From Candidatus Binatia bacterium (GTDB taxonomy: Bacteria; Desulfobacterota; Binatia; Bin18), in contig JAJDTY010000007.1 in assembly GCA_022826945.1 (NCBI GenBank), forward strand, positions 132,501 to 196,500: DNA of 64,000 nt, in the 5' to 3' direction. The translations under genes and the position numbers were made by a program. Positions 38,136 to 38,857 of the stretch are shown here, one piece after another. How positions within the stretch are numbered: the stretch's first letter is position 1; each line of letters opens with the position of its first letter. Under the pieces are notes generated by a model. The model worked only from the letters and a program-made list of their open reading frames with translations. It was not told where the DNA came from and ran no database searches.

Positions 38136-38729
38136 TTACTGAGTGGAGGAGGCTTGCGTCTCCTGCTCCTGAGCGGTCTCTGCGGGGTGCAGCGGGCAGG
38201 TCTGTCCGATCTCCAGACCGAGTACATGAATCAACCGACCATAGCCGACAAAAGTCACTATCCGCCAGCCCAGTTCCAGGATTTCCGGCTCGGTAAAATG
38301 TTCGCGTAAATCGTCAAACAGCGCAGGCGAAGCCAAGCGATGATCTCCGGCCAGGATGTCCGCAAAGCGAATGGCGACTTTTTCGCGTGGCGTAAAGAGT
38401 TCGCTGGTTTCGTACTGGGGCAGCGCTGCAATCAGTTCTTCCGTCACCCCTTGTTGCCTTGCCAAGGCAAACCGGGCGTGCATTCATAAATTGCAGTTGT
38501 TGCGCTCGGCCACCTTGAGGCGGGCCAACTCGGTCAGTTTGACATTAACTTCGCCCCGTTCGCCTGACACCAACGGAAAATAAAAATTGATAAACGACTT
38601 GAACACCTCAGGCGCGTGGGCAAACACCTGTACGAACTCCGACCCACCGAGTTCCTGGTCATACTCGCGCATGATTGCCTGAAGCTCGGCGTCAACCTGA
38701 TCAAAGGGAACCTTGCTCATCCGATCCAT
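38136..38729 (-). CDS. candidate selenoprotein: AhpD/carboxymuconolactone decarboxylase-like, UGA as selenocysteine
   Basis: Two adjacent open frames on the minus strand are one gene split only by an in-frame TGA at 38484-38486. The joined protein is 197 residues and belongs to the carboxymuconolactone decarboxylase/AhpD family. The stop falls exactly in the redox motif: ERNNCNL-U-MHARFALA, giving C79-x-x-U82 where relatives have C-x-x-C. A SECIS-like hairpin lies 20 bases after the TGA. AhpD-like proteins with Sec in this motif are a known selenoprotein group. If read through, it would be a thiol- or selenol-dependent peroxidase. The alternative is a recent nonsense mutation. selA, selB, selC and selD are not in this window. 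Confidence 0.75.
38454..38470 (-). promoter_or_regulatory. SECIS-like hairpin in the AhpD-like gene
   Basis: The minus-strand transcript contains TTGCCTT-GGC-AAGGCAA, a perfect 7-bp stem with a 3-base loop starting with G. The loop begins 20 bases after the in-frame TGA. Bacterial SECIS elements are hairpins inside the coding region with a G in the first two loop positions and 16-37 bases between UGA and loop; this one satisfies those rules. Confidence 0.65.
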
Positions 38730-38857
38730 AACACTCCTCCTGCTTTCAGTCTTTTTCCTCTCTTCTGCGATTTTTCAGAAAAAAGCAAGCACTGGTCTAC
38801 CGCACCGATGAGTCGCATTGACAGGGAGTTGTGTTTTCTGAACCATAAGAGATCAGC

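Follow-up and report, generated by a model that had tools for sequence, protein, structure and literature searches.

The minus-strand gene at positions 38136..38729 of the window, the 64,000-nucleotide stretch of Candidatus Binatia DNA analysed here by computation, almost certainly encodes a full-length AhpD-like selenoprotein of 197 residues with a CMD fold, in which the UGA of codon 82 would be read as selenocysteine (Sec). AhpD-like selenoproteins with a CxxU motif, described from Sargasso Sea and GOS data, have been known since 2005 (PMC1088965, PMC2398784), in agreement with the initial annotation, which had stated that AhpD-like proteins with Sec in this motif exist, and they appear in current lists (PMC9312934, PMC13188914). 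The window gene joins this group, in a lineage that uses such proteins heavily. Among the papers searched, none links the Binatota with selenoproteins. Automatic annotation would shorten the enzyme or split it into two fragments.

Reading frame and SECIS hairpin

The coding sequence is formed of two minus-strand frames, 38484-38729 (81 codons and the TGA) and 38136-38483, which lie in the same phase and are interrupted only by the TGA at 38484..38486; the gene ends with a TAA. A Shine-Dalgarno sequence, AGGAGG, can be read from the sequence at 38736..38741 (minus strand), 6 nt upstream of the ATG, while scans for a sigma-70 promoter and a terminator found none. The read-through product contains the segment ERNNC-N-L-U-M-H. 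It matches the Pfam family CMD (PF02627) with 37 bits, against a gathering cut-off of 23 (E 3.4e-9), and the domain spans residues 40-123, across the TGA. Phase and Pfam match confirm the initial annotation, which had described a single CMD/AhpD-like protein broken by this TGA alone. The stop was also expected to take the place of the second Cys of a CxxC motif, and Cys is indeed found there in the Cys-coding homologues.

A hairpin with a perfectly paired 7-bp stem (TTGCCTT/AAGGCAA) and the loop GGC is located at 38454..38470 of the minus strand. The published model of bacterial SECIS elements has a loop of 3-9 nt with a G in the first two positions, a stem of 4-16 bp, a distance of 16-37 nt from the UGA and an MFE of -7.5 or lower (PMC13188914). 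The hairpin lies within all of these limits, with its GGC loop, 7 bp, a distance of 20 nt and a 40-nt stretch at -13.0 kcal/mol. The hairpin with a G-starting 3-base loop had been recognised before and placed 20 bases downstream; it stands as described, except that the 20 nt lead to the start of the loop, and the stem starts at 13 nt. Taken by itself, the energy with which the raw region folds (z -1.4) is not convincing; only the comparative evidence for the hairpin is.

When synonymous codons were drawn for the same peptide, with the codon usage of long window frames, all 7 pairs formed in about 0.1% of the draws (3.9 pairs expected); the full stem is likewise rare in such draws for most homologues. 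Among orthologues, synonymous differences occupy 7 of 308 pairwise cells in codons 83-94 and 1051 of 4165 elsewhere, the cells not being independent of one another. For the window gene and its most distant orthologue, the corresponding counts are 1/11 and 66/124 (Fisher P 0.009). Across 22 different homologous hairpins, pairing holds in 98.1% of the cells, compared with 69% after shuffling and 32-54% in slid versions of the structure. Double changes are seen at 7/7 pairs, and there are 52 compensatory cells versus 14 ± 3 in the shuffles, which ignore the relatedness of the 22 sequences. Single positions show four different pair types across families; notwithstanding the caveat on the shuffles, this would be hard to explain without selection on pairing. 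In ten Cys-coding homologues, 0-4 of the 7 pairs are formed in that register. Judged from these comparisons, the hairpin is under selection.

Fold and proposed chemistry

The AlphaFold2 model of the protein (pLDDT 81) has the all-helical AhpD fold and aligned to AhpD of D. radiodurans with a Z of 19.5 over 176 residues at 2.6 Å. The debrominase Bmp8, the first Foldseek match, aligned with a Z of 18.9, less than one unit below the best AhpD, and PA0269 with a Z of about 17. By sequence, the relative in the PDB is PA0269 (E 2e-12); a profile search gave, as further PDB relatives, other AhpD-like proteins and Bmp8, which matches less well in sequence than PA0269 does.

Residues Glu67 (codon at 38529..38531, minus strand), Cys79 (38493..38495, minus strand), the partner of Sec82, and Sec82 itself are invariant in alignment A1. 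Glu67 is located 12 residues before Cys79, a spacing identical to that of the relay Glu in M. tuberculosis AhpD (Glu118/Cys130) and in PA0269 (Glu36/Cys48) (PMC3141380), and Sec82 stands at the position of Cys133 and Cys51 of these two proteins, respectively. The second canonical feature of AhpD, a His at +4 from the second Cys (His55 in PA0269), is replaced by Arg86 (38472..38474, minus strand). The Cys homologues in alignment A3 have this Arg too, and it is invariant in that alignment. The term AhpD-like, used in the initial annotation, is therefore appropriate for the fold, the CMD domain and the relay Glu, but the protein is not a canonical AhpD, since Arg86 takes the place of the family His; for the same reason, a peroxidase relay in this protein would not be canonical.

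In the mechanism that we propose, the selenolate of Sec82 would be the attacking residue, oxidised by a hydroperoxide or a related oxidised substrate. The oxidised Sec82 would be resolved by Cys79 to give a selenenylsulfide, which a cellular thiol/disulfide reductase (dithiol) could recycle, and Glu67 would relay the proton. The chemistry is probably the reduction of peroxides or disulfides. The substrate is a presumed one, because in fold the protein resembles the debrominase Bmp8 no less than the AhpD peroxidases, and so is the reductant named here.

Less probable, though it deserves consideration, is that the protein is not a peroxidase itself but keeps a partner peroxidase reduced as a thiol/selenol adaptor, in the way that AhpD serves AhpC. 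Mycobacterial AhpD has such a role (PMC3141380), and an Arg at the position of the relay His may weaken direct peroxidase activity. Against an adaptor stands the lack of an ahpC nearby in the window: neither ahpC nor a reductase gene adjoins the window gene, and its conserved neighbours, kept in same-genus orthologues, are aat, dapB and an APH-like gene.

It is quite improbable that the Sec protein is a reductive dehalogenase like Bmp8, using its selenol as thyroid deiodinase does and not acting on peroxides. Sponges are rich in organobromines. The Binatota have been reported from sponges (PMC9999580), and the structural match to Bmp8 described above points in the same direction. However, Bmp8 has a Trp at the Glu67 site and is the more distant relative by sequence, and similarity of fold does not indicate the substrate. 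The broader version is just as doubtful, namely that the Arg86-type CxxU proteins are selenoenzymes expanded in the Binatota for a non-peroxide chemistry, such as selenol dehalogenation of organobromines on an AhpD fold, in the manner of deiodinases. Reduction of peroxides or disulfides at Sec82 is preferred over these roles.

Selenium machinery and conservation of the TGA

The source genome assembly (4.7 Mb, 86 contigs, contamination 5.2%) contains selA (604 bits), selB (385 bits), selD (309 bits) and a tRNA-Sec with the anticodon UCA (70.7 bits), which adjoins selA. SelB, holding Sec-tRNA(UCA) and docked on the hairpin that closely follows UGA82, would insert selenocysteine at codon 82, and the product would carry a C79-x-x-U82 redox pair in the AhpD-like fold. 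The machinery, the conserved TGA and the covarying hairpin support the earlier suggestion that this organism makes selenoproteins.

A search of the same genome with the window protein gave six matches with exactly one TGA each (99, 62, 53, 37, 31 and 30% identity). A search with CMD added two further TGA genes, with the segments CHYUTQSH and CHYURSSH, which have the classical AhpD motif (CxxUxxxH) including the His, and hairpins of their own with the loop GTT; a further ten CMD matches lack a TGA. The AhpD-family TGA genes of the genome are the window gene, five relatives and the two of the CxxUxxxH type. A covariance model of the CxxU motif and the hairpin, run on the whole genome, found exactly the six family members and nothing else. 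The two CxxUxxxH paralogues were not expected from it, because their hairpins have a different register. Two of the six matches lie in two copies, about 90% identical, of a segment of at least 5.8 kb that comprises one AhpD-like Sec gene and its flanks (loci L128 and L129, contigs C16 and C7). The repeated segment may be a segmental duplication or, given the contamination of the assembly, a mixture of two strains, and the number of genes is therefore given as seven or eight.

A scan independent of homology, covering about 2.3 Mb or roughly half of the genome, ranked the genes of the family high and also produced false joins, for example of an enoyl-CoA hydratase gene with a luciferase-like gene. 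Other genes with an in-frame TGA were observed in the genome. The gene at L180:3195-3797 (contig C12) belongs to the UGSC family (NF041046, 146.6 bits, above the cut-off of 125) and has its TGA in the UGSC motif, with an 8-bp SECIS-like hairpin. A PrdB/GrdB-like gene at L194:2036-3262 (C29, the contig of selA and tRNA-Sec) has a TGA in UPLC. An Rv2258c-like methyltransferase gene at L154:2566-3636 (contig C54), with a TGA read as CMHU and a hairpin, may encode a further selenoprotein. A bacterial 16S rRNA gene on the minus strand is cut by the window edge, with its 5' part at positions 1-1062.

The TGA is found at the same codon in 7/7 orthologues (77-98% identity) from other genomes, which are named Candidatus Binatia/Binatota or bear older names. 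In two of these related genomes, G399 and G400, each a single contig, the TGA gene and selA lie on one contig, which excludes a binning artefact or mixed bins. TGA-bearing homologues are present in 35 of the 148 genomes of the class; selA accompanies them in 35/35, compared with 123/148 of the class overall (P 6e-4). The tree shows about four interchanges between Sec and Cys forms, whose direction is unsure because several branches are long. One homologue from another genome of the same family (L068) has a TAG in addition to the TGA and is perhaps a decaying copy. As many such genes occur in Binatota genomes, the use of selenium in these uncultured bacteria is probably under-counted. Furthermore, the diverged Sec copies within one genome, together with the Cys homologues, lend themselves to a comparison of what an AhpD fold gains from Sec.

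At other places in the genome UGA does act as a normal stop, for instance between the enoyl-CoA hydratase and luciferase-like genes, but a decaying CMD gene in which the TGA is a true stop by nonsense mutation or a sequencing error is very hard to credit, with the TGA shared by the seven orthologues and by paralogues down to about 30% identity, a covarying hairpin and the selenium machinery present. The initial annotation had held that a displaced TGA or further frameshifts in relatives would indicate a pseudogene; in the orthologues the TGA keeps its codon and the frame has no further damage. Decoding as another residue such as Trp, whether through near-cognate readthrough or an altered genetic code, found no evidence in its favour and is just as implausible with Cys, not Trp, in the homologues, tRNA-Sec and selA, selB and selD in the genome and a hairpin of SECIS geometry. 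Conservation and the selenium machinery were the grounds for rejecting a pseudogene, a frameshift and a change of code.

Comparison with known proteins

The best NCBIfam models for the window protein are the YciW-related (seleno)protein family and peroxidase-related enzymes, with scores below the curated cut-offs for NF053654 GroundWater_YciW (69.5 bits against 310) and TIGR01926 peroxid_rel (44.7 against 81.8). NF053654 is the best model (E 3e-19, residues 1-154 aligned), and its score places the window protein in another subfamily. PA0269 (PDB 2ijc, 2o4d), an AhpD-like weak peroxidase with 27-30% identity, shares the Glu and both Cys positions; it differs in having Cys instead of Sec and, at +4, a His in place of Arg86. 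The debrominase Bmp8 (6ohi, 6ohj) is alike in fold, length and place of the CxxC motif, but it has Cys and not Sec, a Trp at the Glu67 site and 16% identity to the window protein. The known AhpD-like CxxU selenoproteins (COG2128/YciW and pfam02627 types) agree with the window protein in family, in Sec at the second Cys and in a SECIS element right after the UGA (PMC1088965, PMC2398784, PMC13188914). What sets the present case apart from them is the noteworthy and unusual number of such genes, seven or eight, that a single genome carries.
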